DNA from: Bacteroidota bacterium
GTDB lineage: Bacteria > Bacteroidota > Bacteroidia > NS11-12g > UBA9320
DNA: 64,000 bases
Direction of reading: 5' to 3'
NCBI GenBank assembly: GCA_947468275.1
Contig: CANIKO010000019.1
Coordinates: 1 to 64,000 of the forward strand
Shown: positions 8,169-30,325 of the stretch, piece after piece
Position numbering within the stretch: the stretch's first letter is position 1
Layout: each line of letters opens with the position of its first letter
Translations under genes and position numbers: made by a program
Notes under the pieces: model-generated
What the model saw: the letters and a program-made list of their open reading frames with translations, nothing else
Databases searched by the model: none
Told to the model about the DNA's origin: nothing

Positions 8169-8178
8169 TTATTTTAGG

Positions 8179-8186
8179 CAAAAATA
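8179..8186 (-). promoter_or_regulatory. -7 box (TATTTTTG) of the lipoprotein L,D-transpeptidase gene
   Basis: The minus strand carries TATTTTTG, a perfect TAnnTTTG, in the 25-base gap before the TTG start at 8168. It suggests the gene has its own promoter as well as any read-through from the gene at 8194. No TTG lies at the ideal -33 spacing. Confidence 0.4.
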
Positions 8187-8193
8187 ATGCTTC

Positions 8194-9027: not shown

Positions 9028-9209
9028 TTTTTTGGAGATTGGCAAATAAAACATAATTATACGGAAATAAAAATTTTATAGTCTGCAAGGCTAACGCAAT
9101 TGTTATGCCTAAAAGTATAATTTCAACTTCAGTATTTTTTAAATATCTGAAAAACAGAGCATTAAAAATAATTTAGTAAAAAATCATTTAAAAAGGTTTG
9201 GTTTGAAGC

Positions 9210-10526: not shown

Positions 10527-13339
10527 GAGAGTTTCTCCACCAAATACTTCCCTGTATAACTTTCCTCGCATTTTACCAATCCTTCAGGAGTTCCTTCATA
10601 CAAAAGGTTTCCTCCATGTTGACCGCCATCTGGACCAATATCAATTACCCAATCGGCACATTTTATAACTTCTACATTGTGCTCAATAATAAGAATGGTA
10701 TGGCCTTGAGCTATAAGGGCATTAAAGGAAGCTAACAATTTTTTAATATCATTAAAATGCAGCCCGGTGGTAGGTTCATCAAATATAAACAACACAGGAT
10801 CAGGATTTTTACCCATAGATAGAAACGAGGCTAGTTTTACCCGTTGGGCTTCGCCGCCACTAAGTGTAGCACTGCTTTGGCCAAGAGTTACATAGCCTAA
10901 GCCTACATCAAACAAGGGTTTTAGTTTACTAATGATGTTTGGTCTGCCATCAAAAAAAGAAATTGCTTCTTCCACGGTGAGGCAAAGCACATCGTAAATA
11001 GATTTGGTTTTATAGGTTACTTCCAACACTTCATCTTTAAAGCGATGGCCTTTGCACGATTCACAGGTTAGGTGTAAATCGGCCATAAACTGCATTTCTA
11101 CCAATTCTTCTCCTTCGCCTTTGCATTGTTCACATCGGCCACCTTCCACGTTAAAGGAATAATGCTGCGGCTTAAATCCTTTTTGCTTGCTGTGGGGTTG
11201 GTCGGCATATAAATCACGAATATGGTCCCAAGCTTTTACATAAGTTACTGGATTGCTTCGAGTCGATTTTCCAATAGGATTTTGGTCTATCAGTTCAACT
11301 TGTTTTATTTGTTTAATATCGCCCGAAATACTATCAATATCTCCGGTTCTAATAGTTGTATAATTTCCAATGGCTTTTTGTAAAGCGGGGTATAAGATGC
11401 CTTTTACCAATGAGGTTTTACCACTTCCACTTACGCCTGTAACACAGGTGATGATGTTTAATGGAAACTTAACATCAATATTTTTAAGGTTATTTAATCT
11501 TGCTCCTTTTATCTCAATAAAATTGCTCCACGAACGGCGTTGCAAGGGGACTTCTATTTTAACTTTTCCTGTTAGGTATTGTCCTGTAAGGCTTTCACTT
11601 TCATAGATATCTTTAAAATCGCCTTGGAAAACGACATGACCACCATGAGTTCCGGCCAAAGGACCAATATCAATTAACTGGTCGCTGGCAGCCATCATTT
11701 CTTCATCGTGTTCTACCACAACCACCGAATTGCCCATGTTTCGTAAATTTTGAAGTACACCAATCAGCCGCTCGGTATCGCGGGGATGCAAGCCAATACT
11801 AGGTTCATCTAAAATGTAAGTGCTACCAACTAAACTGCTTCCAAGGGATGTTGCCAAATTGATACGTTGCGATTCGCCGCCGCTTAATGAATTACTCAAT
11901 CGGTTAAGTGATAAATACCCAAGACCAACGTCTTTAAGGTAAAGCAGTCGGTTTTTAATTTCTGTTAAGAGACGAACCGATATTTTTTCGTCGTTGTCTT
12001 CTAATTTTAAGGAATCGAAATAATTATAAGCATTTTCAACCGGCAGTAATAAAATATCACTGATGGAGGCAAATTTATCCCTAAACTTAAACTCAGCACT
12101 TAATTTATTGGTATGCAAAAGTTTGATGTATTCTGCATCTTTGCGCAGCCTCACCCCACGGCATTCAGGGCAAAGAGTTTTACCCCTATATTTGGAAAGC
12201 ATCACTCTGTACTGAATTTTATAGCTTTGTTCTTCAATAAATTTAAAGAATTGGTTAATGCCTAAAATATGGTTTTTGCCTTGCCATAAGAGGTCTTTTT
12301 CTTCCTCGGATAATAAATAATAAGAGCGGTGAATTGGAAAATCAAGCTTGGCAGTGGTGGCAATAAAGGTTGCTTTCCACTCACTCATACCTTCGCTTCG
12401 CCATGGAGCCACAGCTCCTTCAAATACCGACATATTTTTATCAGGAATTACCAAATCCTCGTCAACTCCAATTACAGTTCCAAAACCTTCGCAGCGTTTG
12501 CAAGCCCCGTAAGGATTATTAAAACTCAAAAGATTTACCGAAGGTTTCTCAAATTTTATTCCGTCCTGTTCAAATTTATTGGAGAAATTGTGCCAACTGT
12601 CTTTATCATTTTCCCTCACCAAAATACTGATTTCGCCCATACCTTCATAAAAAGCAGTTTGCACAGAATCGGCCATGCGACTGTCTTGCGAAGTATCTGT
12701 ATTGTCTTTTACAAGTCGGTCAATTATTAAATACGAATTTTTTAAGGTTATTTTTTTCTCTTGTAAAATATCTTCAATTTTTACCAAGCCACCATTGTGC
12801 CAAAGCCGAGTAAACCCGTTGAGCATCAAAACCTTTATTTTCTCTTCGGCTTTTTTATCATCTTGCAGTTTTACACAGATGTAAAGTTGAATACCTTCAG
12901 GTTGTTCCACCAAAAAATTAACAACATCTTTAACTTCAAAACATTTTACTTCCTTGCCACTCACCGGGCTAATTGTGTGGCCTGCACGGGCAAATAAAAG
13001 CTTTAAATATTCATAAATTTCGGTACTGGTGGCCACCGTACTTCGCGGGTTTCGGGTATTTACTTTTTGCTCAATGGCAATGGATGGCGATAGGCCTTTG
13101 ATATAATCCACTTCCGGTTTTTCAAGCTTGCCCAAAAACTGACGAGCATAGGAAGAAAGACTTTCCACATAACGGCGCTGGCCTTCGGCAAAAAGCGTAT
13201 CAAAAACCAATGATGATTTGCCTGAACCTGAAACCCCGGTAACTACAACCAGTTTGTTTCGAGGAATATTAATATCAATATTTTTAAGATTATGAAGCCG
13301 GGCTCCTTTTATTTCTATGAATTTTTCTTTCGGGGTCAC
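10523..13339 (-). CDS. uvrA: Excinuclease ABC subunit A
   Basis: A 938-residue DNA-damage sensor of nucleotide excision repair, cytoplasmic, partner of UvrB. It has two ABC ATPase halves. The first Walker A ([10 protein letters not shown]) spans residues 35-44 and the second ([10 protein letters not shown]) lies near residue 640. Signature motifs LSGGESQR and LSGGEAQR are present. Zinc-binding cysteine pairs CKRC (near 278) and CPEC (near 387) bracket the insertion domain, and CEQC...CESC makes the C-terminal zinc module. Length is typical. The ATG at 13339 lies only eight bases after a TACCTTTG box, so the mRNA is probably almost leaderless. It converges on the MFS gene. Confidence 0.97.
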
Positions 13340-16538: not shown

Positions 16539-17357
16539 TTATAAAGTAGCAAAGGCGGTTCTTTGTGCAAATTTAACTCCTTCGCTATCAAACCTTTTTT
16601 TAATAGAATAGTTAAGGTCACAATGCATTTCAAAAGCTTTTTCAGGATCTTCTGAACCTACCATTGTTCGAAGAGTTATGGTTCCGTTTTCAATTTTTGT
16701 TACCCTTACAATTAATTCAGAACTCTCCGGATTTTCGTTTTTTAATTCAAGATACCCTTTGTGATTAAGTATTTCCTCTTTAATGATTTTTGAAGCTTTA
16801 TCTATATCACTGTCTATGTCAATAATAAATTCAATTTTCTCTTTTTTTCGCTCATCATTCAAATGATAGTTTACTATTGTCTCCGAGTTTATTTTTGCAT
16901 TTGGAACAATAATCCGATTGTTTTGAATATCTCGAATTACTGTGTGGCGCAGGGTTATGTCTTCTACAGTTCCTCTATGTAAAAGGCTTAATTCAATATA
17001 ATCTCCTACACGAAATGGTTTGGAAATGACAATGAATATGCCACTGATTATATTAGAAAAGGCTTGTTGCGAAGCCAAAGCTATAATAGCTGCAAAAATA
17101 CCTGCACCTGCAAATAACGTTGCTCCCAATGCTTTTAAACTAGGAATAGAATAAAAAACCAAGGCAAATGCAATGCTGTATATAACGAAAGAAATGGTGT
17201 TTTTTAAAAAAGTATAATTTGTAGGGTCAACTTTTATTTTTGAACTATTAACCTTTGCTGCTCTTTTGATAATCCACCGCAATACTTCGGAAGTAACAAA
17301 AGCACCAATTAAAATAATAATGATGGAAATAACCAATTCAATATTTTTATTTCCCAT
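16539..17357 (-). CDS. Small-conductance mechanosensitive channel, MscS family
   Basis: A 272-residue channel with three N-terminal helices. The third is the pore-lining helix, rich in Gly and Ala (ATLFAGAGIFAAIIALASQQAFSN). The MscS beta domain follows, with FRVGDYIEL, GTVEDITLRHTVI and IIVPNAKI, and then the alpha/beta cytoplasmic vestibule. It opens under membrane tension to release solutes in osmotic downshock. Length is typical for the compact form. It begins five bases after the rfbC stop and is probably on the same message; the small membrane frame at 16344 follows it. Confidence 0.93.
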   Translation of the reverse strand: MGNKNIELVISIIIILIGAFVTSEVLRWIIKRAAKVNSSKIKVDPTNYTFLKNTISFVIYSIAFALVFYSIPSLKALGATLFAGAGIFAAIIALASQQAFSNIISGIFIVISKPFRVGDYIELSLLHRGTVEDITLRHTVIRDIQNNRIIVPNAKINSETIVNYHLNDERKKEKIEFIIDIDSDIDKASKIIKEEILNHKGYLELKNENPESSELIVRVTKIENGTITLRTMVGSEDPEKAFEMHCDLNYSIKKRFDSEGVKFAQRTAFATL

Positions 17358-17362
17358 GGTAT

Positions 17363-17908
17363 TTAATTAAACGGTGAGTTAAAATCTTTAAATTTTGGCA
17401 ACAACAAATCTTTTTCAGAAACTATTGGATTACTTACCTGCCAATTTAATCCAAGTTGCGAATCGTTATAAAGTAAGCCTCCTTCAGAAGTTTTATTGTA
17501 ATAATTAGTGCATTTATATTGAAAAATTGTATTGTTTTCTAATACTGAAAATCCATGAGCAAAGCCCGGTGGAACCCACAATTGCTTGAAATTTGTATCG
17601 GATAATTCAACCGTAATATTTTGACCGTAAGTAGGGGAGGATTTACGGATATCAATAATAATATCAATTACAGTTCCTCTTGAAACTCTCACTAATTTTC
17701 CCTGATCAAACGGAGGAGCCTGAAAATGCAAACCTCTTAAAGTTCCTTTTTGCGAAAGGCTTTGATTATCCTGCACAAATTCAAAGTCAATTCCATTTAG
17801 GGCAAAAAGTTGTTTTGAAAAGCTTTCAAAAAAATGGCCTCGTTCATCGGCAAATACTTTAGGCGTAATTAATAAAGGACCTTTAATATTAAATGTTTCT
17901 ACCTGCAT
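17363..17908 (-). CDS. rfbC: dTDP-4-dehydrorhamnose 3,5-epimerase
   Basis: I use the ATG at 17908 (181 residues, the family length), preceded by aggaag seven bases upstream and by a TAAATTTG box; an ATG at 17938 lies upstream of that box. The cupin enzyme has LRGLHFQ with catalytic His61, FQYKC with Tyr131, GTVIDIIIDIR and WVPPGFAHGF. It epimerises dTDP-4-keto-6-deoxyglucose on the way to dTDP-rhamnose for surface polysaccharide. The other rfb genes are not in this window, so rfbC is separated from its pathway here. It is followed by mscS after five bases. Confidence 0.95.
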   Translation of the reverse strand: MQVETFNIKGPLLITPKVFADERGHFFESFSKQLFALNGIDFEFVQDNQSLSQKGTLRGLHFQAPPFDQGKLVRVSRGTVIDIIIDIRKSSPTYGQNITVELSDTNFKQLWVPPGFAHGFSVLENNTIFQYKCTNYYNKTSEGGLLYNDSQLGLNWQVSNPIVSEKDLLLPKFKDFNSPFN

Positions 17909-17920
17909 TATTTCTTCCTG

Positions 17921-17928
17921 CAAATTTA
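17921..17928 (-). promoter_or_regulatory. -7 box (TAAATTTG) of rfbC
   Basis: The minus strand reads TAAATTTGCAGG, a perfect -7 box 13 bases before the ATG at 17908. It supports the 181-residue start. The aggaag that follows could act as a ribosome binding site, which is unusual for this genome. Confidence 0.5.
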
Positions 17929-17940
17929 ACATAACCAACC

Positions 17941-17981: not shown

Positions 17982-18665
17982 TTATAATTCATGTGAAAAT
18001 CCAATACCATAAATAAAATCACGATTGGTAGGATTAGATGCGTTTAACTCTTGCTGGTAAAGAAAATATAGCTCAAGTTGGGTATGCTTGTTTAAATTAT
18101 AATTTAAACCCAAAGCCGTTCTTGATTTACTAAATCCTTTATTTTTTGCTTGATAAAATGGGTAATAAAGTTCATAACCTATATATGGATTTATGAACTT
18201 ATTAAGATCGTATTTGATGCTTACTTTATTTCTTTCATAAAACTTTGGAATTTTGCCATCCACACTGCTGTAAATATCTTTCATTCGCATTTGCACCATA
18301 TTGCGGTATGAAAAATCCCAACGACCAATATTCTTTTTAAGAATCAAAGCCGTATAAAAGCGGTGTTCGTTGGTAAAACTATTATCTGGATTAGGGCGTT
18401 TCAGATAAACGTAATCGGCCATTAGTCGTATGTTTTTATTAAACCGGTAGGTTATTCCAAAGTCTATATTTCCACGGCCATAAGTACTCACATTTTCATT
18501 AATTCGGTTTTGCTGACTGAGTTGTAAATACACATGTTTGTTTATTTTTTTTTCAAGGTTAAAGCTTATCCAAACTGCGGCATCATCAATAAAATCTGCT
18601 TGTGCAAATGATTTTTTGCATGGCAAAATAAAAATAAAGCAAGCTATAAGGATAAATTTTGGCAC
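17982..18665 (-). CDS. DUF2490 outer-membrane beta-barrel protein
   Basis: A 227-residue protein with a signal peptide (residues 1-22, FAQ end) and alternating strands that alternate aromatic and polar residues, the pattern of a small outer-membrane barrel. The features AAVWISFNLEKKI, NRINEN and the regular YRFNKNIRL and YDLNKFINPY strands match DUF2490, whose members have no known function. The start is GTG in a TAGTG overlap with the stop of the DUF4956 gene, so translation is coupled. It is the last gene of the predicted ASST-CotH-VTC operon and may be its outer-membrane component. Confidence 0.8.
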   Translation of the reverse strand: MPKFILIACFIFILPCKKSFAQADFIDDAAVWISFNLEKKINKHVYLQLSQQNRINENVSTYGRGNIDFGITYRFNKNIRLMADYVYLKRPNPDNSFTNEHRFYTALILKKNIGRWDFSYRNMVQMRMKDIYSSVDGKIPKFYERNKVSIKYDLNKFINPYIGYELYYPFYQAKNKGFSKSRTALGLNYNLNKHTQLELYFLYQQELNASNPTNRDFIYGIGFSHEL

Positions 18666-19315
18666 TATTCGTAATAAAATATTTTTAAATAAGCGGCATC
18701 CTTCAAAAAATCTATTCTTTGTATTTCAATCTTATGGGCCTCAATTCCGGTACGGTTTTTAATATCCTGAATTAGTTCCATGCGTTTGTCGTTATGAATT
18801 AATTCAATGTTTTCATAAAGAATCAATTTCACAGCTTCAGTTCGCATAAACAGTTTTCCTTCTAATAAAAAGGTTATAAGAATTAATGCACCATTTACAC
18901 AAGCTAAAAATAATAGTTCATAGCTTTCTGTAGCATCTTTAATTCGGCTTACTGCGGCAATTAATCCCATGGCAATTACCAAAAAAAGATAAGTCATATC
19001 CTTTAAACTAATATCCTCTGTGCGGTAACGCAGCATACTGAAAACCGCAAATAATCCAAAAGCAGCCCCCATACTTAGTTCTACCTTGTTTAATAAAAAG
19101 CAGATGAGAAAAATGATACCGTTAAAAATAAAATAGGTGAAAAATAAATCACGCTTTTTATAAACCGGGAAATAAACAAATCGTATGAGTATAAAAACGG
19201 AGACAAAATCTATAAGGAACCTGAATCCTATTTTGGATAAAAGTTTTTGAAGCGCCATCATTCCTGTTTCAACAGGAATTTCTTCAATGGCTTGTAAAAG
19301 TATGGTGGCTATCAT
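18665..19315 (-). CDS. DUF4956 membrane protein
   Basis: A 216-residue protein with four to five membrane helices in the first 150 residues and a soluble alpha/beta tail of about 65 residues containing NRTGIEAHKIEIQRIDFLKD. The core FGLFAVFSMLRYRTEDISLKDMTYLF is the DUF4956 hallmark. Members are repeatedly found next to VTC-domain and CotH genes in other bacteria, but no activity has been established. Its start overlaps the VTC gene by 32 bases; an ATG at 19261 would avoid the overlap. I infer that it forms a membrane complex with the VTC enzyme, perhaps as a conduit, but the sequence does not prove that. Confidence 0.85.
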   Translation of the reverse strand: MIATILLQAIEEIPVETGMMALQKLLSKIGFRFLIDFVSVFILIRFVYFPVYKKRDLFFTYFIFNGIIFLICFLLNKVELSMGAAFGLFAVFSMLRYRTEDISLKDMTYLFLVIAMGLIAAVSRIKDATESYELLFLACVNGALILITFLLEGKLFMRTEAVKLILYENIELIHNDKRMELIQDIKNRTGIEAHKIEIQRIDFLKDAAYLKIFYYE

Positions 19316-20054
19316 TTATAATGTTGGTTATTGTTTTTAGTTTTTCTTTAAAATTATTTTTTTTCACATCACAGGTCATGGCTATTCCCATAGCATATTT
19401 ACTTATTGAGCCTTCGCGAATATTGTTTTCTTTCATGGCATTAAAAAAAACAGAACTTACTTTTTTGTCTTGTTTTACTTCGGCAATCACTAACGTTTCA
19501 AAACATAAGTTGGTGTCGCTTTTAATAAATTCAAGGTTTAAATCGATGGTTAATCGTTCAGCACTTTCTCTGCTTACCAGGGTTATTCTATTGTACTTTA
19601 TCCAAATGGCAGGAATTAAGGATTCGGAATTCAATGTAGATTTGGATTGAATAAAGGTATGAATGGTTTCATCAAATCCATCGGGTACTTCCTTTTGGTT
19701 TACCCGGCTTTTTATAGTTCTACCCTTGTTATTCTTAAATTTTACTTCAAAAAAACCGAGGTTGCTCTCCAAATAGGTTCTGTGTCGCACTTTATAACGG
19801 TTCAGTTTGCCATATAAATGCATTTTATACAAATTGAAATTAGCTGTGTCATAATACAAGGTTTTGTAACGGCTAATCCTGTTTTGCCCCACTTCCAATA
19901 TTTTATAATAGGGGTGTATTTTACTTAAAATAGCAGGCAATAAAGTGATATGAAAACAAAACTTTCGGTCGGTTCTGTTCATTAATTTCACACCGTCCAT
20001 CTCGGCCAGAGTAATGGGAGTAAAGGATTGCAATATATCGTTTAGAGGATTCAA
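19284..20054 (-). CDS. VTC-domain polyphosphate polymerase
   Basis: A 256-residue cytoplasmic protein with the VTC/TTM tunnel fold. Basic and acidic residues that line the yeast Vtc4 tunnel have counterparts here: R27 and K31 (MNRTDRKF), R62 (SRYKTLYYDT), R90/R92 (KVRHRTY), E103/K105 (FFEVKFKN), K116, E192/K194 (AEVKQ) and K219 (SKYAMG). The active site therefore looks intact and could make polyphosphate from ATP. No SPX regulatory domain is present. It is followed by, and overlaps, the DUF4956 membrane protein gene, as the membrane subunit would in a minimal VTC-like complex. Confidence 0.88.
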   Translation of the reverse strand: MNPLNDILQSFTPITLAEMDGVKLMNRTDRKFCFHITLLPAILSKIHPYYKILEVGQNRISRYKTLYYDTANFNLYKMHLYGKLNRYKVRHRTYLESNLGFFEVKFKNNKGRTIKSRVNQKEVPDGFDETIHTFIQSKSTLNSESLIPAIWIKYNRITLVSRESAERLTIDLNLEFIKSDTNLCFETLVIAEVKQDKKVSSVFFNAMKENNIREGSISKYAMGIAMTCDVKKNNFKEKLKTITNIINDSHHTFTSH

Positions 20055-20057
20055 TAA

Positions 20058-20534
20058 TTATTGGTAGCTGTAAATATATTTTTTTGAAGAAATAAGTTTG
20101 TTCCCTCCGTCATAGATTTTCTTTTCAGTTTTTAAACCTTGATTGTTGTAGGTGAAAACATGCTTTTTAGTCAGTTTTAAATCACTTCCGTAAAATATTT
20201 CTTCTGATTTTTCACCCAAACTGTTATACTTCACTTCCTTTTTTTCTTTCAGTTTGTTGGCTGCATCATATTCAGTTTCTTCAATCACATCTCTTTCTTT
20301 ATTTAGTTTGTATTTATGTATGGTTTTAAGCGAACCATCCTTAGTGTAGGTTATATCTTCCACTACTTCTCCGTTCTTGTCAAAAACTGTTTTTCCTTCA
20401 TTTACAGCAACTCCATCAGTTGTTTCGGTTACTGTTACCATCTTTATTTTAAATTTTTTAACCTCTTTTTTACTTTGAGCAATAAGATATGCAAACGAAA
20501 ATATTATAGCGGATAGAATAAATATTTTTTTCAT
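20058..20534 (-). CDS. Exported repeat protein (RHS-like beta repeats), function unknown
   Basis: The ATG at 20534 gives 158 residues with a signal peptide (KKIFILSAIIFSFAYLIAQ). The mature part is lysine-rich and built of short strands of the form tYd..gkLkekke.kYN..GekseE, similar to the YD/RHS-type degenerate repeats seen in periplasmic or surface proteins. No catalytic motif is visible. It starts one base after the stop of the lipoprotein gene and ends three bases before the VTC gene, so it belongs to the operon. A binding or spacer role fits best; the function is unknown. Confidence 0.72.
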   Translation of the reverse strand: MKKIFILSAIIFSFAYLIAQSKKEVKKFKIKMVTVTETTDGVAVNEGKTVFDKNGEVVEDITYTKDGSLKTIHKYKLNKERDVIEETEYDAANKLKEKKEVKYNSLGEKSEEIFYGSDLKLTKKHVFTYNNQGLKTEKKIYDGGNKLISSKKYIYSYQ

Positions 20535-20535
20535 T

Positions 20536-20937
20536 TTAGTTATAGATTGTGATTTTGTCAACGGTTACAGTTTGTTTTTTCTTAGTAATTTTAACATCCT
20601 TAATTATGGCTATTTGTCCTGATGGAGACTGCAACGATTTGTCTTTGGAATAAACATAAATTTTATAGTTTCCTTCTCTTAAAAATTTAAACTCATATTC
20701 GCCATTGTAGTTAGCCCGGGTTCTGTCAGAATAGCTTAAATTATTCCCATAAATAATATAAACATCCACATCAGCAGCGGCATATTCTGATTGTAAAACT
20801 GTAAATGTTGTGTTCCAGTCTTCAGTCCAAATACTTCCTTTAATGGCAGCTTTTCCACCTTCACCTTCCGGCTTCTCGCAAGCCATAAATAGAGTTGCTA
20901 TAAATAAGAAGAGTATTGATTTATTAAGTGTTTTCAT
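20536..20937 (-). CDS. Lipoprotein with carboxypeptidase-regulatory-like domain
   Basis: A 133-residue lipoprotein: signal peptide then LFMACEK with lipid-modified Cys20. The mature part is one small beta-sandwich resembling the carboxypeptidase regulatory-like or CNA-B fold, with AAIKGSIW at the first strand, NYNGEYEFKFLREGNYKIYVYS at the core and a last TVTVDKITIYN strand. Such domains often bind or stabilise surface proteins. It lies between the CotH gene (12 bases upstream) and the repeat protein gene (one base downstream), so it is part of the operon. Confidence 0.75.
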   Translation of the reverse strand: MKTLNKSILFLFIATLFMACEKPEGEGGKAAIKGSIWTEDWNTTFTVLQSEYAAADVDVYIIYGNNLSYSDRTRANYNGEYEFKFLREGNYKIYVYSKDKSLQSPSGQIAIIKDVKITKKKQTVTVDKITIYN

Positions 20938-20949
20938 CGTTTTCTTTAA

Positions 20950-23253
20950 TTATTTAATAACTGTTAAAACCCCGCGAGCCGACATAACTCCGTGTTTATC
21001 TTTTACCATATATACATAAATTCCTGAAGCCAATCCGTCCAAATTAATGGTAGATTTTTTATTGGTAAAGAGTGAATTTTTAACCAAAGTGCCATATCTA
21101 TTGTAAAGTTCAATTGTTGAAATATTAAAACTATTGCTGCTAAATGTTACTTGACCATTAGCTGGATTGGGATAAACAGTAATCAAATTTTTATAGGTTT
21201 TTGCTTCCTTGATACCAGCCGAACAGAAAAAATTATTTGATTCCTTAAACGTTGGTGTTTTTATATCAATAAAATTTCCGGTTGCATTGGGGCAGCGGCC
21301 TGTTGATACATCTTCTGATTGATTAAAATAGGTAACGCTATCTAAAATGGCACCATGTGAATTGCTTAAAACTACTTGACCATAAGTGCCGGATAAACTA
21401 AAACCACTGTGGGCATATTTGGCAGTAGTTTTTAAATCATCAGCCCAGATAATTAGGTAACTGTTTGGGGCTATGGTGGTATTTACATCAAAAGGATATT
21501 TTTTCAAACTGGTTACATTATCGGAAAGATAATAGCCGGTAAGATTTAATGTTTTAGAGGTCGTATTATAAAGTTCAATCCAATCGGTGTAAAGACCATA
21601 CTCATTGATATCACTTTCTTTATTATCAGCCAAAAATTCATTCACCACCAAATCTCCTTTTTTTATGGTATCTGTAGGTATACTTAATTGGTAAAATTCA
21701 TATTCAGCCCGTTCCGGCGAAAACATTCCGGCGTTTGCATTTTCAGCATAAATGTAATAGTAAAGATTAGCCAAAGCCATCGTTAACGAACCCCCGTAAA
21801 CATTATCGCCGGCAGCTCCGTCGTTATGGTTTCCGTCGTCAAACATTTGCAATTTTTCAAACTTTTTGGTTTCATCAAATTTGTATCCTAAAAAAACGGC
21901 ATCCGTTTTGGTATTGGTAACTAATGCGGTAATGCTAACAGGAGCGTTATAAGCAGGAACAGTAGGGGTTGGTGTAATGGCTGAAATAGTAGGAGCGGTT
22001 TGGGTAAAATCGGTAGTTGATTTGAGATAAGTAACTCGTGTATCCATCAAAGTACTGATACCGGGAACCGAATAGGAACCAACATTTACATTGGTTGTCA
22101 TTGCAGTTTTAAATTGTGAATAGCTATAAAATTTATTACTATCGGATTGAACTTTGGAGTCAATTAAATTTTGCATTTGCGAAGCCAGCGTAACATATTC
22201 ATTGTTGGTAAAAAAATCTTTCACAATAGTTCTTAAATGTGCTGTATACATCCGTTTGAATCTTGGATTTTGCATCACAGCATTAATCAATGGCCAATCG
22301 GTATGGGTATCGTGATAAAACGGAGAGAGTTGCTGCATATTTGAAATACTCAAAGTTCCCATTCCATTATTAGGACTTCCGGCAAATGGAAAACCCCCAA
22401 AAGCCATGTTTAAATCCCAAACGATGGGATTAAAAAGGCCATTGTTATCCTTGTATAAATAATAATTTTGGGCAAAAGCGCCATTATAACTATCAAGATT
22501 TATCAAAAGATTGTTAAAAGCCAGCATCCAAATTGCTTTATCAATATCTATTACTGAACTAACTCTGGCAGGAAAATTTGAAATTGTATCACACAATGTT
22601 ACAAGTTCGTTCCAGCCATTTTTTGATTTTTTTTCGTAGTAAGGTTTATACAATGAACTATCCGCCGAAATATATTTCAAATTACTTTTTACAGTAGGCC
22701 CCGGAGTAAGGTTTGGGTTGCATTTTATAAAGGTATTATTGGAGGAATAAAACTTATCGCTGCAAAACTTTTTATTGATACTTTCAGCATTGGAATATAT
22801 TCCCATGTATTTTCCATTAATGTATAATTCAGCAAAATTTGCACTGGGGCAATCCATATATTTTTTTAAAATATTATAGGCCAAAACCTCTCGAATCATA
22901 GATGGGTCAGAGTATGAGTTTCCCAATTTAATATCCACATAACCCTGATAGGATTGGTCTTTTTTATTATTCAATTCAAAATGAAACGCATTTTTTTTAT
23001 AACTGGAATCGTAGGAACTACTTCCTTTATATTTTATCCCTACACTATCGTATTCAACACCATTTATTTTTACCCAATCGGCCATTAAATACTTGTCGGT
23101 ACCCATTTTTAAAACATCAAGTTGATAATCCCAATCGGATTGAGAAAACTGAACTTCAATTTTTTGAATGGTATTTAAATCATAAAAATTTTGAGAGAAA
23201 CCTTGAAAACATAATAGGAAACTGAGAAGTAGAAGGGGAATTTTTTTAAGCAT
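20950..23253 (-). CDS. Secreted CotH-kinase family protein with lamin-tail and T9SS domains
   Basis: A 767-residue exported protein. Signal peptide 1-20 (GFSQ). The CotH domain (about 25-420) has the expected fold: VGIKYKGSSS, the SMIREVLAYN helix, NGKYMGIYSN, then Asp254 (LLINLDSYN) and Asp280 (VWDLNMAFGG), which match the two catalytic aspartates of CotH kinases. A lamin-tail-like domain (about 560-670, LVVNEFLADN...DWIELYN) and a type A T9SS tail (TVYPNPANGQ) follow. In Bacillus, CotH phosphorylates spore-coat proteins; here the protein should be on the cell surface. The target and phosphate donor are unknown. Confidence 0.9.
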   Translation of the reverse strand: MLKKIPLLLLSFLLCFQGFSQNFYDLNTIQKIEVQFSQSDWDYQLDVLKMGTDKYLMADWVKINGVEYDSVGIKYKGSSSYDSSYKKNAFHFELNNKKDQSYQGYVDIKLGNSYSDPSMIREVLAYNILKKYMDCPSANFAELYINGKYMGIYSNAESINKKFCSDKFYSSNNTFIKCNPNLTPGPTVKSNLKYISADSSLYKPYYEKKSKNGWNELVTLCDTISNFPARVSSVIDIDKAIWMLAFNNLLINLDSYNGAFAQNYYLYKDNNGLFNPIVWDLNMAFGGFPFAGSPNNGMGTLSISNMQQLSPFYHDTHTDWPLINAVMQNPRFKRMYTAHLRTIVKDFFTNNEYVTLASQMQNLIDSKVQSDSNKFYSYSQFKTAMTTNVNVGSYSVPGISTLMDTRVTYLKSTTDFTQTAPTISAITPTPTVPAYNAPVSITALVTNTKTDAVFLGYKFDETKKFEKLQMFDDGNHNDGAAGDNVYGGSLTMALANLYYYIYAENANAGMFSPERAEYEFYQLSIPTDTIKKGDLVVNEFLADNKESDINEYGLYTDWIELYNTTSKTLNLTGYYLSDNVTSLKKYPFDVNTTIAPNSYLIIWADDLKTTAKYAHSGFSLSGTYGQVVLSNSHGAILDSVTYFNQSEDVSTGRCPNATGNFIDIKTPTFKESNNFFCSAGIKEAKTYKNLITVYPNPANGQVTFSSNSFNISTIELYNRYGTLVKNSLFTNKKSTINLDGLASGIYVYMVKDKHGVMSARGVLTVIK

Positions 23254-23254
23254 T

Positions 23255-24244
23255 TTAGTGGTTTACTTGCAATTTTAATGTGGTATGAAAATTAGTGCCA
23301 TTGGAAATATTAAGCAAGTAAAATCCTGAATTTAATGAAGTTGTTTGAACAGTCACCGAATCTGTAACATTTTCATAGTTCATTAATGTTCGCCCAGTAA
23401 TGTCTTTTACCGAAATGGTAAATGTTCCGTTTGATGAATTAATATTTACAATTGAAACAGTGTTTGATGGATTTGGAGCAATACTAACCATATTTATAGA
23501 TGCCATTTTATTAATACTGGCTTCAATGCAATCGGAACAAGATTCAAAGCACACTTCGTTTATTATGGTATCACTTGTTATAGTAATTTGCCTGTTTCCC
23601 TTGGAGTTTTTGCAACTTCCTGTTAAGGTTTCTTCTGAAACTCCATTTGTAAACTTGTATTCACAATTTGCTGAATCAACATAGGCAACATATTCATGAA
23701 CTTTATTGCCAAAACTATACATGAAGGATTCATTCTTATTCCAGTTTTGAAAGTTCCCAATTACATGAACCCCGTCACTGTTAATGGCAAATTGAGATTG
23801 CATATCCACTTTAAATTTTACCATTTTTTTTCCTGCCGGGGCATTTCCTCCAAATAGTAATACAGGCATTAAGGTTACGTCATCGCTTAATGAATCGATA
23901 TAAATCCAGCGGCTATCATTAAAATCATAACCAACTCTCGATTTTTCAGGTACAAATTCAACTTCGTAAAATTTATCACCATTCACATACTTGTATTCGT
24001 ATTTACGAAATGCAGGAATGTTTACTACAATGCTGTAAATATCTGTTCCCGGTTCTTTGGTAAGTTCGGTTGTGTCAGAATTCCAATCTGAACCATAACC
24101 GGCTTCATCCTGAAAATCTCCTGAAACATGCACACCATTTGGGCTTATAGTTTGCCCTGTCATATCCACAGCAAACTTTACTCTTTTTGCAAATCCCATA
24201 TTTGCACAAAAAAGCAAGGAAAGTATTATGATTTTTTTTAGCAT
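23255..24244 (-). CDS. Secreted T9SS protein with two starch-binding-like modules
   Basis: A 329-residue exported protein. After the signal peptide (residues 1-19) there are two modules of about 110 residues with the same strand order, opening VKFAVDMTGQ...GVHVSGDFQ and VKFKVDMQSQ...GVHVIGNFQNW. This is the CBM20/CBM48-like or E-set pattern, and each contains a YEYKYVNG or YKFTNG strand. A cysteine-rich linker (CFESCSDC) precedes a type A T9SS tail with IAPNPSN. It ends two bases before the CotH gene. A glycan- or polymer-binding role is likely; the ligand is unknown. Confidence 0.8.
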   Translation of the reverse strand: MLKKIIILSLLFCANMGFAKRVKFAVDMTGQTISPNGVHVSGDFQDEAGYGSDWNSDTTELTKEPGTDIYSIVVNIPAFRKYEYKYVNGDKFYEVEFVPEKSRVGYDFNDSRWIYIDSLSDDVTLMPVLLFGGNAPAGKKMVKFKVDMQSQFAINSDGVHVIGNFQNWNKNESFMYSFGNKVHEYVAYVDSANCEYKFTNGVSEETLTGSCKNSKGNRQITITSDTIINEVCFESCSDCIEASINKMASINMVSIAPNPSNTVSIVNINSSNGTFTISVKDITGRTLMNYENVTDSVTVQTTSLNSGFYLLNISNGTNFHTTLKLQVNH

Positions 24245-24247
24245 ATT

Positions 24248-26395
24248 TTATTTAATCAAATTTAATTTTATGGTTCCAACGGAAACAGACTTAGTATAAA
24301 TATTTACCAAATATATACCGTTTTGAAACTCGCTCATATTAATATTTTCAAGGTTTTGAGTCTTTAAGATAGTTCTTCCGTAAACGTCATTAATTTTAAT
24401 TTCAATGTTTTCTAATTTACTGTCATTTTCGATTGTAAAATTTCCATGGCTTGGATTAGGAAACAAACGGAAAGAAAAAGGTGTTTTATAATTTTTTACA
24501 CCTGAAACAAAAAATGAAAAGGCATCTGAAAAATCAGATTCGCATCCGCTAGCATCCGTTATTTTTACGCGATATGCACTGCTTTTTGCAGGAGTGTAGG
24601 ATTGTGTAATAATGCTTGAAATAATTACGGTATCTTCATACCACTTATAAGTTATTCCGGTGCTTGATGTTAATGTATTGGCTGTTTGAGTAATTATTGG
24701 CTTATTAGGTTTTGGATTTACTATAACCAAAATAGTGGTTGAATCTTTAATACCATTATTTGTTGCCACTACTTTATAAGTAGTATTCACTGTTGGTGAT
24801 ACGGTAATATTTTTTGAAGAAGAAGAAAATCCGGCAGGTATGGAAGTCCAGGAGTAAGAGGTTGAACCAATTTCATTGGAAGCGGTAATATCTATTTGAG
24901 CGCTTTTTCCGAGGCAAATACTTGGTGCATTTATTGGCCCGGAAATTTTAAAAGTTGAGCCCGATGATTTAAATTTATAACCAGCAGAATATCTGTAAAC
25001 ACAGCCATTGTTGTCAGTAATTCTCACAACATAAATTCCATCCTTGGTTGGGGTGTAATTGATAGAATTTGCTCCGGTTATTAATTGCCCGTTAAAATAC
25101 CATTGATAAGTGGTTGCTGAAGAACTTTTGAGAACGCTTGAGTTGTCCGTAATTATTGGTATAGCTGGCGGTTCATTATCTGTAAAACATTTGTTATAAC
25201 GATGAGCCTGTTGGGCTGCACCGGTAATTGTTTTCGACCAGATAGAATTTCCTGTAGGATCTATTTCATAAATATATCCTGAAAGTGCTACACATACTAA
25301 CATGTTTCCGTTCGGTAACTGTTCCGAATTGCCGGCATTACTTGTATAACCATTGCATGCATGGCGAGTATAGGTTGAAGGCTCATATGCTGAACCCGTC
25401 GTCAAATCATAATTATAACCACTTATTGGAGTAACTATTTGGTCAACACTTGACTTTGTAGTGGAAACGCCCTGATTGTTAAAACCAACTAATCTACCTG
25501 CATTAGGCGAACCTTCGGGTATCCAATGGGCATCATGAGTAACTTTTAACACAGTGGTACCTGTGGCATTATAAGCCGCAGGGTTCCCCCAGCGGTATAA
25601 AAAATCACCACCTTTACCCGAGTTGCCACCGCTGTGCGAAGCAGCTTCAGCAGTATTGGTGCTATGGTCAATAATATACCATTCGTTAAGATTGTGCGAA
25701 CTAACGGCTATCTGGTCTAAAATTGGATTATAATCAATGCCATTCATGTGAATCCAATCTTTGGTTGCTTTGTAATTAACATTTAATAATTCAGGATGAT
25801 TGACTATTGACGCTTGATAATTAGGCTTATTAGCATCCTTATCCTGAACAATATGGTCCCAAATTTTCCATTCCCAAACTACTTCGCCGGTGGTTGCACC
25901 TGTAGGTTTTATTTCCACAACTTTATCAGGCCACATAATGTTTCCATATGTGCATCCAGCAGCAGTAACCTGAGCCGCCGTTTTACTTTCATAGGCAATT
26001 AATAAAACATTTCCATTGGGCATTGGGCAAATATCATGATGGGTACAATATTCGGTGGTGGAGTAAACGAAATCCCAAATTACATTACCAGCCCAATCTA
26101 CTTTTTGAATTTGTCCGTTTATTGGTCCGCCGGTAAATGAATTGCCTGTTCGGGCAACGCTTCTCCATAAATATCCACCTGGCATTAAATAGCATGAATA
26201 ACCTGATTTGGCAGTAGAGGCATGTGTCCATGTTTTGGCAACATTTCCATTGGTATCTAATAAATATGAGTTAGTGGCGTTCATTACACTGTAAAGCGTA
26301 TAATCGCCCCATTGTTGGGCTTTAGCAATCGGACTATAGAAAAAGAGACCAAATAAGATTAAAGAAAGAGATATAGTTTTTGTTTTAAAAATCAT
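24248..26395 (-). CDS. Arylsulfotransferase (ASST)-family secreted protein with T9SS tail
   Basis: A 715-residue exported protein. Signal peptide 1-27 (IAKAQ). Residues 30-400 look like the ASST beta-propeller: repeated GNVLL/GNMLV strands, TEYCTHHDICPMPNGN, WIHMNGIDYN, THDAHW and TRHACNGYTSNAGN, with conserved histidines at the positions expected for the catalytic centre. Two Ig-like modules (about 425-640) and a type A T9SS tail follow. ASSTs move sulfate between phenols without PAPS; substrates are unknown here. It heads the tight run leading to CotH and VTC, three bases before the next gene. Confidence 0.85.
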   Translation of the reverse strand: MIFKTKTISLSLILFGLFFYSPIAKAQQWGDYTLYSVMNATNSYLLDTNGNVAKTWTHASTAKSGYSCYLMPGGYLWRSVARTGNSFTGGPINGQIQKVDWAGNVIWDFVYSTTEYCTHHDICPMPNGNVLLIAYESKTAAQVTAAGCTYGNIMWPDKVVEIKPTGATTGEVVWEWKIWDHIVQDKDANKPNYQASIVNHPELLNVNYKATKDWIHMNGIDYNPILDQIAVSSHNLNEWYIIDHSTNTAEAASHSGGNSGKGGDFLYRWGNPAAYNATGTTVLKVTHDAHWIPEGSPNAGRLVGFNNQGVSTTKSSVDQIVTPISGYNYDLTTGSAYEPSTYTRHACNGYTSNAGNSEQLPNGNMLVCVALSGYIYEIDPTGNSIWSKTITGAAQQAHRYNKCFTDNEPPAIPIITDNSSVLKSSSATTYQWYFNGQLITGANSINYTPTKDGIYVVRITDNNGCVYRYSAGYKFKSSGSTFKISGPINAPSICLGKSAQIDITASNEIGSTSYSWTSIPAGFSSSSKNITVSPTVNTTYKVVATNNGIKDSTTILVIVNPKPNKPIITQTANTLTSSTGITYKWYEDTVIISSIITQSYTPAKSSAYRVKITDASGCESDFSDAFSFFVSGVKNYKTPFSFRLFPNPSHGNFTIENDSKLENIEIKINDVYGRTILKTQNLENINMSEFQNGIYLVNIYTKSVSVGTIKLNLIK

Positions 26396-26555: not shown

Positions 26556-29500
26556 TTATTCTAGGATAAGTACAGATGATATTTCACCCTGAGAATTACT
26601 GATTTTTAAAACAAATATTCCTTTTGCTAATGAACTTACATCAACGCTGCGACTTAACTTTTCATCCGATTGATACCATTCATTTTCATACTTCACCTGC
26701 CCGAGAGTATTTATCAAGCTGATTTTATATGCCCCGGGTTTTGCTCCATCCAATTCAATAGTCACCATATTTTTTGTTGGATTAGGAAAAAGCTTTAAAA
26801 ATGATTTGTCAGACAAAAGTTGGATACTTCCCGATTTTTGTACAGTAACGGATTTGCTAACCTGACTACTTATACATCCGTATTTATCGGTCTCTGTAAC
26901 TTTTACTGAAGCGGTTATCGGGCCGGCATTCCATTTAACGGTTATTTGGTTTGTATTTCCTCCGCTTTGTTGCCCCCCACCAGTTATGGCCCAAGTATAT
27001 ACTGAACCTGTATTTTTGGTCACTGTCATTGTATCAATAAATGTGGCGTTGGTCACCGATTTTCCTATTATTATAGGATTGGAAGGTTTTGGCAAAACAG
27101 TAACGGTTTGAGTAGATGAATCAGAACACGACTTGCCAATGGTTGTAATTAGCTTAATATCAAAATTTTGAGAAGCGGTATAGGTTTTAGCACCAGTGGT
27201 AAGTGTGTCGCTGGTTCCATTTCCATATTTCCATTGGTATTTTTTTGGAGCATTGGAAGGAGTGCTGTTGTTTGTAAAAATAAACGAATTTGCTCCCAAA
27301 CACTGACTGTCGTTATTTATTGTAAAACTTGCTTTAGGTGAATCGTAAACCAAAATATTTTTGGTAGCTGATACTTCACAACCATCACTGTTTTTAATTT
27401 TTAAAGTAACTTTATAATTTCCAGCGGTATTAAATGTGTAATCAACATTGGAGGTAGTTGCGGAGTCGCCTTTTCCAAAATCCCAAAAACGGGTGGTTAA
27501 TGTTTTTCCAAACAAATCGCTTTTGTCTGCAAAATTTATAGCAGTTTCGGCGCAACCCACCGATGATGTAAAGGAAGGAGACATACATTGTGTAAATACC
27601 CACCATAATTCATTGCCATAGTCAGGATGGTTGGCGGTAAAGAAAAGTGTATCTCCTTTTAAAGTGAATAATGCAGGGTCTGAATTATTAATTCCTTCGT
27701 ATACTTCGGGCAACATCACAGTTCCGGCATTTGTTCCATTGGTTTTCCATAACTCCTGACCGGTGCTGACCTCAAAGGCTGAAAAATATAATTCATCACG
27801 CACTGCAATCATTCCTTTAATGTTGCTTCCGGCTGTTCCCGGATTAATATCTTTAACCAACTTTGTACCGGTGTCGGTTCCATCTGATTTCCAAAGTTCA
27901 GAACCGGTGGCACTGTCAGTTAACACAAAGTAAAGCGTATTGCCAACCATAGTTAGCTTTGTAGGATTTCCACTTTTTGGACCTGAAATAATATCTTTAA
28001 TCATTTTGGTACCTGAAGAAGTTCCATTACTGCTCCAAATTTCAGCCCCGTTAGTATTATTATTAGCTACAAAATATACCTTGCCTTTGGCAGCTACCAT
28101 ATTATTAATGGCCGGACTTGAGGCTCCGGCCACTATTTCTTTAACCATTACGGTAGAAGCATAGGTTCCGTTTGTTTTCCAAAGTTCTGGACCTTTAGAC
28201 CCGTCGTCAGCGGTAAAAAATAACGTTGTATCCATTACGGTAAGGTTGGAAGGGTTACTATTTTTATAATCTAAATAAATATCACGAACTACTTTAGTTC
28301 CTGAACTTGTTCCATCACTTCTATAAAGTTCATTGCCGGTGCTTGAGGTTTCACGAGCTGTAAAATATAAATAGCCATTCATTGACCTTAAATTGGCTAC
28401 TTCATCACCCAATCCGTTGTTGTTAATGGTAACCACCTTGCTTGCATTTGCACCTGATGTGTATTTCCATAATTCGGGATATAAACTAGAATACCAAGTG
28501 AAATAAACAGAACCTTTTACTTCGGTAAAATCACCCGGAGTGCCATAAAAAGATTTCACCCCAATTTTTGAAGTTCCGTTAGCAGTTCCATCACTATGAA
28601 AAAAGTCTCCATAACAATCATTGCCGGTTGCTGCAAAATAAACTTCATTTTTAAACGAGGCTAGTTTAGTGGGGGCTGCTGAGTTATTATTGGTTGTTCC
28701 TAAATCCTTAACCAGTTTGGTGCTGGCAGTATCACCATTGCTTTTCCATAGCTCGTCTTTTAGCACAGGGGTATTGGCATTAAACATTACACCGCCCGGA
28801 TAGGCAGCCATAGAGGTTATACCGCTACTCATGGTTGCAGGATAAATATCAGCCAACAGGTTGGTTCCATTTGCTGTTCCATCACTTATCCATACTTCAT
28901 CGCCATGCACAAGGTCGTTTACACTAAAAATTAATTTGCCGTTAAAAGCTGCAAGTTCATGAGGATTGCTGGCCGTTGTTCCTGCTACAATATCCTTAAC
29001 TTTTACAGTGCCCGAAGAAGTTCCGTTACTTTTATAAAGTTCAATATCTAAATAATCAGGACTTGAATGGGCTGTAAAAAACAAAGTGTTACCCACCGCA
29101 GTCATGTTGTTTATTTGGGCATCAGTTTGAATAGGGTACATATCTTTTACCATTTTAGTACCCGTTGAAGTTCCGTCGCTTACATGCAATTCGCGGCCAT
29201 TGTATCCGGTAGCTGTAAAAAATAAAAGGCCGTTCACATCCATTAATGTTAAAGGATTACTGCTGGATGTTCCCGATTCAATATCTTTAAGCAATGCTGT
29301 ACCCGCAAACGTTCCGTTACTTTTAAATAATTCATAACCGGTGGTGGAGGTGTAGGCAGCAAAAAAAAGTGAGCCATTACTTACGCAAAGGTATTGAGCA
29401 TTATCAAAGGCTGTGGCGATGCTTATTGCTTTTGTGCCGGTGTCGGTTCCATCGCTGCACCAAACTATGGTATTGCTACTACTGCCCCCTCTTGCCGAAA

Positions 29501-30215
29501 AATAAAGCTTTCCTTTGAAATTAGTAAAGTATCCAAGTGAACTGCCGGTGGTACCTTGATAAATATCTTTAACCATTACGGTTCCTGAATTTGTACCATC
29601 GGTTTTCCAAAGTTCCAGTCCATTGCTGCCATTATTTGCTGCAAAAAACAAAGTGTTATTTATTACCCTAAATTCCTTTGGATCTGACGAGGCAGTTCCT
29701 GCATTAATATCTTTTACCATTTTGGTGCCGGTATCAGTGCCATCGGATACCCAAAGTTCTCTTCCATCAGCAGTGGTTGCTGTAAAGTAAAGTTTACCAT
29801 TGAATGGCGTGAGATTTACCGGGCTGCTGTAATTGGATGTGCCTGCATATATATCTTTTACCAATACCGTTCCTGCAGTGTCGCTTTTCCAAAGTTCAAT
29901 GCCATTGATTCCGTCATTGGCTGCAAAAAAAAGAGTTTTGCCCAATGACCCGAAATTGGCAGGAGAACCGTAAGCTGCTCCTTCCCAAATATCTTTTACA
30001 AACTCGGTGCCCTTGGTGGTGCCATCGGTTCGCCACAGTTCGGTGCCTACACCGGCCTTAGCTCCTGCAAAATATAACCAGCCATTATGGGCATAATAAT
30101 TTGTGGGAGTGCCACTGATATAAACGGTATTGATATCTTTGGTTAAAACTGGTTTTTGTGCCTGAACCATTAGGATTGCCGCACAACTTAATACTGTAAA
30201 GAAGATTTTTTTCAT
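26556..30215 (-). CDS. ELWxxDGT-repeat T9SS protein
   Basis: The ATG at 30215 gives 1219 residues with a signal peptide ending VQAQ; an ATG at 30266 would put 17 odd residues before it. Residues 25-910 are about 17 repeats of roughly 48 residues, each with a motif like GxELWKSDGT followed by GTxxVKDI, the ELWxxDGT family, expected to form beta-propeller blades. Some copies are degenerate (IVWCSDGT, DFFHSDGT). Two to three PKD-like domains follow (about 930-1130), then a type A T9SS tail with FPNPTKN. Probably a large cell-surface adhesin or scaffold. A terminator separates it from the ASST gene 160 bases further on. Confidence 0.9.
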   Translation of the reverse strand: MKKIFFTVLSCAAILMVQAQKPVLTKDINTVYISGTPTNYYAHNGWLYFAGAKAGVGTELWRTDGTTKGTEFVKDIWEGAAYGSPANFGSLGKTLFFAANDGINGIELWKSDTAGTVLVKDIYAGTSNYSSPVNLTPFNGKLYFTATTADGRELWVSDGTDTGTKMVKDINAGTASSDPKEFRVINNTLFFAANNGSNGLELWKTDGTNSGTVMVKDIYQGTTGSSLGYFTNFKGKLYFSARGGSSSNTIVWCSDGTDTGTKAISIATAFDNAQYLCVSNGSLFFAAYTSTTGYELFKSNGTFAGTALLKDIESGTSSSNPLTLMDVNGLLFFTATGYNGRELHVSDGTSTGTKMVKDMYPIQTDAQINNMTAVGNTLFFTAHSSPDYLDIELYKSNGTSSGTVKVKDIVAGTTASNPHELAAFNGKLIFSVNDLVHGDEVWISDGTANGTNLLADIYPATMSSGITSMAAYPGGVMFNANTPVLKDELWKSNGDTASTKLVKDLGTTNNNSAAPTKLASFKNEVYFAATGNDCYGDFFHSDGTANGTSKIGVKSFYGTPGDFTEVKGSVYFTWYSSLYPELWKYTSGANASKVVTINNNGLGDEVANLRSMNGYLYFTARETSSTGNELYRSDGTSSGTKVVRDIYLDYKNSNPSNLTVMDTTLFFTADDGSKGPELWKTNGTYASTVMVKEIVAGASSPAINNMVAAKGKVYFVANNNTNGAEIWSSNGTSSGTKMIKDIISGPKSGNPTKLTMVGNTLYFVLTDSATGSELWKSDGTDTGTKLVKDINPGTAGSNIKGMIAVRDELYFSAFEVSTGQELWKTNGTNAGTVMLPEVYEGINNSDPALFTLKGDTLFFTANHPDYGNELWWVFTQCMSPSFTSSVGCAETAINFADKSDLFGKTLTTRFWDFGKGDSATTSNVDYTFNTAGNYKVTLKIKNSDGCEVSATKNILVYDSPKASFTINNDSQCLGANSFIFTNNSTPSNAPKKYQWKYGNGTSDTLTTGAKTYTASQNFDIKLITTIGKSCSDSSTQTVTVLPKPSNPIIIGKSVTNATFIDTMTVTKNTGSVYTWAITGGGQQSGGNTNQITVKWNAGPITASVKVTETDKYGCISSQVSKSVTVQKSGSIQLLSDKSFLKLFPNPTKNMVTIELDGAKPGAYKISLINTLGQVKYENEWYQSDEKLSRSVDVSSLAKGIFVLKISNSQGEISSVLILE

Positions 30216-30325
30216 AAAAATACAAAGTGGCGAAGATAAGTTTATTCTGGATTGTGGATTTGTCATAAAATCATCTGAAAATCATAATACGGTGTGCAAG
30301 GGTTGTGGACTGTAAAAGGGAACCC

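Follow-up and report, generated by a model that had tools for sequence, protein, structure and literature searches.

A predicted operon pairing a VTC polymerase and DUF4956 with an outer-membrane barrel: a candidate phosphate-polymer export module accompanied by surface CotH in Bacteroidota

Extracellular polyphosphate is reported in bacteria, and a narrow literature query, with most subscription journals outside its coverage, found no dedicated bacterial polyphosphate exporter. Vtc4 is the polymerase of the yeast VTC complex, and eukaryotic VTC polymerases carry an SPX domain and a transmembrane domain of their own. Polyphosphate synthesis by the yeast complex is described as membrane-coupled (PMC10657179). 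In Gram-positive bacteria, genes for CotH, a poly-phosphate polymerase, DUF4956 and DUF4832 are reported to adjoin the pel genes (PMC7112168), and the available text of a Streptococcus intermedius study describes altered Pel after deletion of two of these four extra genes, encoding CotH and a DUF4956-like protein, and states that its analyses did not find the three-gene synteny beyond the Pel locus (PMC12345266). Here we analyze a predicted eight-gene operon of a Bacteroidota bacterium (GTDB lineage NS11-12g; UBA9320) in a 64,000-nucleotide stretch of contig CANIKO010000019.1 (hereafter the window), where genes for a VTC-domain protein, a DUF4956 membrane protein and a DUF2490 outer-membrane barrel stand together with genes for secreted CotH kinase-like and arylsulfotransferase (ASST)-like proteins.

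The window resembles the Gram-positive pel accessory genes, which in the available text of both reports comprise contiguous CotH, VTC-type polymerase and DUF4956 genes with CotH predicted to be secreted (PMC7112168; PMC12345266), and differs from them by adding DUF2490, cargo of the type IX secretion system (T9SS) and a lipoprotein. No PelG match was found in the window's own genome, PelG being the pel gene covered by the search, and among 19 genomes picked for carrying the CotH/VTC/DUF4956 trio none matched PelG above cut-off (0/19), with two weak matches below it. DUF4832 was not found in the own genome and occurred in 3/19 of the trio genomes. The trio also occurs outside Pel loci, contrary to the statement in PMC12345266. 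The grouping itself has already been published; what seems new is the company of a barrel or an adaptor in diderm bacteria, and our literature searches on DUF4956, DUF2490, VTC with CotH, and polyphosphate export did not find these partners described. DUF4956 and DUF2490 genes are also adjacent in Bacteroides thetaiotaomicron, where BT3498-BT3499 share one row of the iron stimulon table in PMC10434189, and the available description of the Clostridium perfringens locus NELoc-2 includes polymerase-domain and CotH genes.

We propose that VTC, DUF4956 and DUF2490 would form an export machine for a phosphate polymer that spans the Gram-negative envelope, a tentative reading to which we give slightly less than an even chance. 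The cytosolic VTC domain would build a phosphate chain inside its basic tunnel, most likely polyphosphate made from ATP, DUF4956 would pass the chain across the inner membrane, and the DUF2490 barrel, with its conserved strand arginines, would release it through the outer membrane, a step that HlyD/TolC would perform in other loci. The surface CotH, ASST-like, CBM-like and lipoprotein products may act on, bind or anchor the polymer, or modify surface material alongside. The whole-envelope geometry is fairly well supported. Partner genes for a barrel or for HlyD/TolC suggest a route across the inner and outer membranes alike. Gene order, protein families, residue conservation and the regular pairing with a barrel or an adaptor are shown here, and the product, the direction of transport, a complex of the proteins and CotH's use of the polymer are inferred. 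The original prediction had VTC and DUF4956 making or moving a phosphate polymer across the inner membrane; this view is partly supported, since synteny favors VTC and DUF4956 as parts of a single envelope machine and extends the proposed route to the outer membrane, with polyphosphate as the presumed cargo.

VTC and DUF4956 genes formed a regular pair. In a phylum sample of 198 genomes, the phylum being taken as GTDB Bacteroidota, 37 contained VTC and 59 contained DUF4956, and DUF4956 lay within 1 kb of VTC on the same strand for 40 of the 43 VTC matches. All 135 VTC/DUF4956 pairs less than 500 bases apart had VTC first and DUF4956 second. Many loci also contained, immediately before VTC, a gene for a ~355-amino acid (aa) adaptor-type protein, and the profile of this family (30 members) matched MacA (3.8e-12), EmrA (1.2e-10) and also AcrA. 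Single members matched the Pfam HlyD models weakly (9/30 and 7/30), so the HlyD-type assignment is made on the family profile and not on single-protein matches. Adaptor and DUF2490 never shared a VTC locus: within 2.5 kb on the same strand, 98 of 139 VTC loci had the HlyD/MacA-type adaptor, 30 had DUF2490, 11 had neither and 0 had both (92, 30, 11 and 0 for 133 non-redundant loci). The 40 loci of the phylum sample and own genome included 21 with adaptor, 13 with DUF2490 and 6 with neither; the 19 loci of the window's own order, from 20 genomes chosen among 42 with VTC, divided into 1, 17 and 1; and the relatives set, the best 80 of 471 retrieved by an adaptor-type VTC alignment, divided into 76, 0 and 4, where the adaptor-clade query means that 76/80 demonstrates constancy inside one clade. 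The association also held from the side of the partners, as 99 of 102 adaptor-model matches and 30 of 31 DUF2490-model matches lay within 2.5 kb of VTC. Models of the neighbor families were trained on loci L033-L098 plus the window and applied unchanged to L099-L178; three VTC matches on short contigs (G119:C213, G022:C91, G022:C160, all among the 43) and the VTC-less loci L053, L054 and L083 were outside the 139-locus count, and the phylum sample and the relatives set had six contigs in common (L041/L103, L046/L157, L061/L129, L062/L105, L064/L102, L066/L174).

A tree of 132 VTC sequences contained one clade of 91 adaptor loci and 5 loci with neither part (support 0.914) and one of 30 DUF2490 loci and 6 with neither (support 1.0). 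DUF2490 was above cut-off in 17/17 genomes of the DUF2490 clade, including six whose VTC locus was without a nearby copy, versus 4/19 genomes of the adaptor clade, a contrast that may be partly inherited since the clades track taxonomy. Among the adaptor-clade loci with neither part were L131 (Chloroflexi) and L140 (Anaerolineae), which we take to come from one-membrane cells; the monoderm comparison consists of these two Chloroflexota loci. Locus L051 had the order CotH-DUF4956-HlyD-TolC-VTC, with TolC matching the OEP family at 4.3e-17, and L054, without VTC, had DUF4956-Porin_O_P-CotH; both orders favor the export reading. The adaptors adjoining VTC-DUF4956 in the window's relatives and the TolC-type OEP of L051 recall tripartite MacA/EmrA/HlyD-TolC export. 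The window differs in having DUF2490 instead, with no HlyD adaptor or OEP found in its operon by Pfam or the neighbor models, and Pfam did not place its DUF4956 in any ABC or RND pump family.

The window VTC protein scored 93.2 bits against a gathering score of 23 (PF09359). Its single sequence had no match in PDB, whereas a profile of 54 relatives matched yeast Vtc4 (3g3q) at 9.9e-21, and 12 columns were invariant across the 54 sequences. In the profile alignment, K31, R90, R92, K105 and K115 correspond to Vtc4 K200, R264, R266, K281 and K294, residues to which we attribute a role in the polymerase tunnel, and the tunnel residues are intact as originally read from the window. The protein is a predicted polyphosphate polymerase, with ATP its most likely substrate. 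It shares with yeast the homologous VTC domain and the agreeing tunnel residues, and synthesis coupled to membrane transfer serves as a working analogy. The differences are that the window protein is a bare VTC domain, with no SPX or transmembrane domain found in its 256 aa and VTC alone above the Pfam cut-off, and that the searches made here did not link DUF4956 to the yeast membrane part. No VTC-DUF4956 gene fusion occurred among the 139 loci, and a very long VTC open reading frame (ORF) in L049 was rejected as a fusion because it overlaps a separate adaptor frame.

Members of the CYTH/TTM fold group, which includes VTC, act on triphosphates and nucleotides, and the same machinery could therefore export another anionic cargo, whether a small phosphorylated metabolite or a different polymer. 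DUF4956-adaptor loci without VTC would fit such a cargo (OEP was above cut-off in L185 and below it in L190), as would the myo-inositol-1-phosphate synthase and HAD phosphatase genes next to DUF4956 in L054, where positions 6403-11301 hold a row of HAD phosphatase, myo-inositol-1-phosphate synthase, DUF4956, Porin_O_P ('phosphate-selective porin', 2.5e-7) and CotH genes with no VTC. The conserved Vtc4 tunnel residues and the invariant columns of the VTC alignment favor a chain product, and we consider a different cargo unlikely. Eleven of the VTC-less loci (L186-L196, family f23, 11 genomes, none among those with a VTC match) had DUF4956 followed by the adaptor and then by a ~412-aa protein, the OEP value in L190 being 0.0019. 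In L180 (9763-12871), a VTC-less DUF4956 gene was followed by one for an unknown 341-aa protein and then a calcineurin-like phosphoesterase. The window's genome contained a second VTC-DUF4956 pair (L033, 10131-11521; G000:C18) with its own lipoprotein, repeat protein and divergent DUF2490. ATP synthase beta-type and delta/epsilon-type genes lie ~156 bases downstream of this pair, and with these identified a V-type ATPase assignment was dropped.

The AlphaFold2 model of DUF4956 (pLDDT 82.3, pTM 0.64) consisted of membrane helices and a beta-alpha-beta-beta tail, and Y48 and R98 were invariant in 55 sequences. Foldseek with this model found no match at E <= 0.001, and VIA-align gave a top Z of 6.2 among unrelated helical proteins. 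When DUF4956 was considered as a known channel, the PDB sequence profile returned a single match, at E 2.9, and nothing was concluded from these comparisons. VTC-DUF4956 may also be read as a regulator, in which an ACT-like C-terminus and an MgtC-like membrane part would act as sensors of phosphate or polyphosphate and adjust the metabolism of surface polysaccharide or of phosphate, with CotH phosphorylating envelope proteins as part of this control. In the available text on S. intermedius, SIR_1592 is described as MgtC-like with an ACT domain, and its deletion raised Pel where that of CotH lowered it (PMC12345266); we take SIR_1592 to be its DUF4956 gene, going by the gene order given in PMC7112168, and the window model likewise ends in a beta-alpha-beta-beta domain. 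Regulation leaves unexplained the regular pairing with an HlyD adaptor or DUF2490, the TolC of a single locus and Porin_O_P, and we regard it as possible but rather unlikely.

DUF2490 modeled as a barrel (AlphaFold2, pLDDT 88.7) with an N-terminal helix and 11 strands. By TM-score, NanC led among small barrels (0.52/0.56), with KdgM (0.44/0.56) and the PcoB, EspP and PelB barrels close behind. NanC/KdgM-type acidic-sugar porins are 12-stranded barrels with a basic lumen, compared with the 11 strands and five strand arginines of the DUF2490 model. These five arginines were near-invariant (26 to 28 of 28 sequences) and all located in strands, and their +1/-1 neighbors were mostly hydrophobic and their +2/-2 neighbors polar, the pattern expected of arginines facing the lumen. 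DUF2490 is a candidate anion channel in the outer membrane, as judged from the model; PMC4827864 lists the family among putative porins of unknown function. In G041:C7 (26316-29048), DUF2490 and CotH genes lie ~1.1 kb apart on one strand and the genome's VTC-DUF4956 pair is elsewhere (C10), perhaps a split module.

Several points weigh against export of a phosphate polymer by this module. The two clades of the VTC tree indicate a single old change of partner and not many. Three adaptor-clade loci of Ignavibacteriales or Bacteroidetes (L052, L123, L132) had neither part though one was expected, which speaks against a strict rule and, these being two-membrane loci, slightly lowered our confidence in the export machine. 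DUF4956 had no convincing fold match, and it stood with an adaptor and no VTC in 13/19 of the VTC-less loci fetched, 11 of which represent one family. For DUF2490, Foldseek E-values ranked mitochondrial VDAC first, at a TM-score of ~0.2, with NanC first only among small barrels. No CotH gene lay within 12 kb for 28/43 VTC matches, the window's genome also carries PPK1, and the available text of the S. intermedius report notes no effect for the polymerase gene (PMC12345266).

The secreted neighbors recurred around VTC. On the same strand and within 12 kb, CotH accompanied 15/43 VTC matches of the phylum sample where uniform placement predicts 1.05 (Poisson tail 6e-13), and an ASST-like gene accompanied 4/43, from four families (G000, G158, G196, G019), where 0.19 are expected (Poisson tail 5e-5); both tails overstate the significance because related genomes are not independent. 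The neighborhood survey thus bore out the association of CotH and ASST with VTC-DUF4956 suggested by the original prediction. CotH was near VTC in 14/19 of the own-order loci examined. The window CotH scored 169 bits against a gathering score of 23.8 (PF08757), and a profile of 30 CotH proteins (28 from VTC-bearing loci, plus L053 and L054) matched Bacillus cereus CotH (5jd9) at 4.7e-43. D254 and D280, noted from the start as intact, were at least 90% conserved in the 30 proteins and aligned with B. cereus CotH, and we presume that they hold the functional roles of the two conserved aspartates. In DUF2490-type loci, CotH ended in a T9SS tail in 5/20 cases and carried a lipobox in 12/20 and neither in 3/20, by pattern; in adaptor-type loci the counts were 23/29, 1/29 and 5/29, with some proteins truncated at contig ends and two contigs counted twice. 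With a T9SS tail or lipobox in most CotH proteins, an outside location appears mostly retained while the route differs. The lipobox proteins had the sequence Cys-Lys-Lys-Glu or near, which we believe resembles a surface-export signal.

A further idea is that exported polyphosphate serves as phosphoryl donor for the surface CotH kinase, or is itself attached, allowing extracellular protein or glycan phosphorylation where ATP is scarce, with diderm variants differing only in how the periplasm and outer membrane are crossed. We consider this quite improbable. The window ASST-like protein scored 75.3 bits against a gathering score of 24.2 (PF05935), and its sole match to a solved structure was partial and weak, to a sulfotransferase at 6.6e-4. 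The arylsulfotransferase active site consists of His, His-x-Asn, Arg and a catalytic His. HHD, HxN and the late His were retained in alignment with a high-scoring homolog from G134, and the column we take to be that of the catalytic Arg had His in the window, Lys in the G134 homolog and Arg in one L198 homolog. With His in place of this Arg, sulfotransfer by the protein is uncertain. Modification of the cell surface with phosphate or sulfate by the secreted set, as originally proposed, stays a conjecture.

A relative of the ASST-like protein lay no more than 12 kb from VTC in L039, L040, L041 (the same contig as L103), L079, L080 and L144, and CBM-like relatives in L040, L079 and L080. Relatives of the lipoprotein lay shortly upstream of VTC in L033, L076, L077, L079, L080 and L093, and those of the repeat protein were found in L033, L079, L080 and L081. 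Four clustered ASST-like genes lie elsewhere in the window's genome (G000:C11, 112349-119220). In L053 (9144-12368), ASST-like and CBM48-like regions, the latter below cut-off, are naturally joined in one T9SS protein next to CotH, with no VTC nearby. This fusion, and the ASST-like gene near just 4/43 VTC matches, would suit an operon of unrelated T9SS cargo (ASST-like, CBM-like, CotH and lipoprotein) co-transcribed by chance with VTC-DUF4956-DUF2490. In L040, from another family, six of the families are nonetheless together in a different order (VTC-DUF4956-DUF2490-ASST-CBM-CotH), which together with the low chance expectation for ASST and the frequency of CotH near VTC in the own order makes an unrelated cargo operon improbable.

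The predicted operon lies on the minus strand between positions 26395 and 17982 (Table 1). As originally described, its eight ORFs are packed with gaps of 1 to 12 bases or overlaps, with successive spacings from the ASST-like gene to the DUF2490 gene of 3, 1, 12, -26, 3, -32 and -1 bases. Pfam and NCBIfam profile matches, judged against gathering cut-offs, upheld the original assignments and the T9SS tails on the three cargo proteins, which passed the NCBIfam cut-off. The identical eight-gene order was found in two further genomes of the same genus (L079, L080), and L081, also of this genus, retained repeat protein-VTC-DUF4956. The predicted operon may extend into two downstream genes, whose products we take to be RmlC-like and MscS-like. 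RmlC-like counterparts of 181-182 aa were downstream in L079, L080, L081 and L082, and MscS-like counterparts in L079 and L081 and, behind an extra 319-aa gene, in L080. Promoter scans were uninformative: sigma-70-like sites in the window run were in no excess over shuffles, and no Bacteroidota-type promoter, by the consensus we assume, was found within the eight-gene run or immediately upstream. Encoded 160 bases upstream of the operon (26556-30266, minus strand) is a 1236-aa T9SS protein that contains PKD domains and 15 stretches of ELWxxDGT repeats.

Table 1 Genes of the predicted operon and its possible extension, with profile E-values unless noted.
Feature	Coordinates	Strand	Evidence and remarks
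ASST-like secreted protein, 715 aa, T9SS type A tail	24248..26395	-	PF05935 5.8e-21; PF14269 1.3e-13; Por_Secre_tail 3e-12; TIGR04183 above cut-off
Secreted CBM48/X25-like protein, 329 aa, T9SS tail	23255..24244	-	PF22058 8.6e-7 and PF02922 5.2e-6, both barely over cut-off; TIGR04183 above cut-off
Secreted CotH kinase-like protein with LTD domain, 767 aa, T9SS tail	20950..23253	-	PF08757 2.5e-49; PF00932 4.7e-18
Small lipoprotein, 133 aa	20536..20937	-	Lipobox LFMAC; SdrD_B 2.8e-4, below cut-off; no family above cut-off
Protein with weak YD/RHS-like repeats, 167 aa	20058..20561	-	No Pfam family; YD_repeat 0.076, below cut-off
VTC-domain protein, predicted polyphosphate polymerase, 256 aa	19284..20054	-	PF09359 2.3e-26
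DUF4956 membrane protein, 216 aa	18665..19315	-	PF16316 7.9e-47; membrane helices and C-terminal beta-alpha-beta-beta domain
DUF2490 outer-membrane beta-barrel, 227 aa, candidate anion channel	17982..18665	-	PF10677 8.8e-28; AlphaFold2 model
RmlC-like dTDP-sugar epimerase (presumed), possible operon extension	17363..17938	-	43-base gap
MscS-like mechanosensitive channel (presumed), possible operon extension	16539..17357	-	5-base gap

The partner genes found in diderm bacteria are fresh evidence on the role of the CotH/VTC/DUF4956 group. Should the export reading hold, three genes in a well-defined order would provide a polyphosphate export route that is testable in laboratory Bacteroidota, and this would explain why CotH, a secreted kinase family, travels with an intracellular polymerase.

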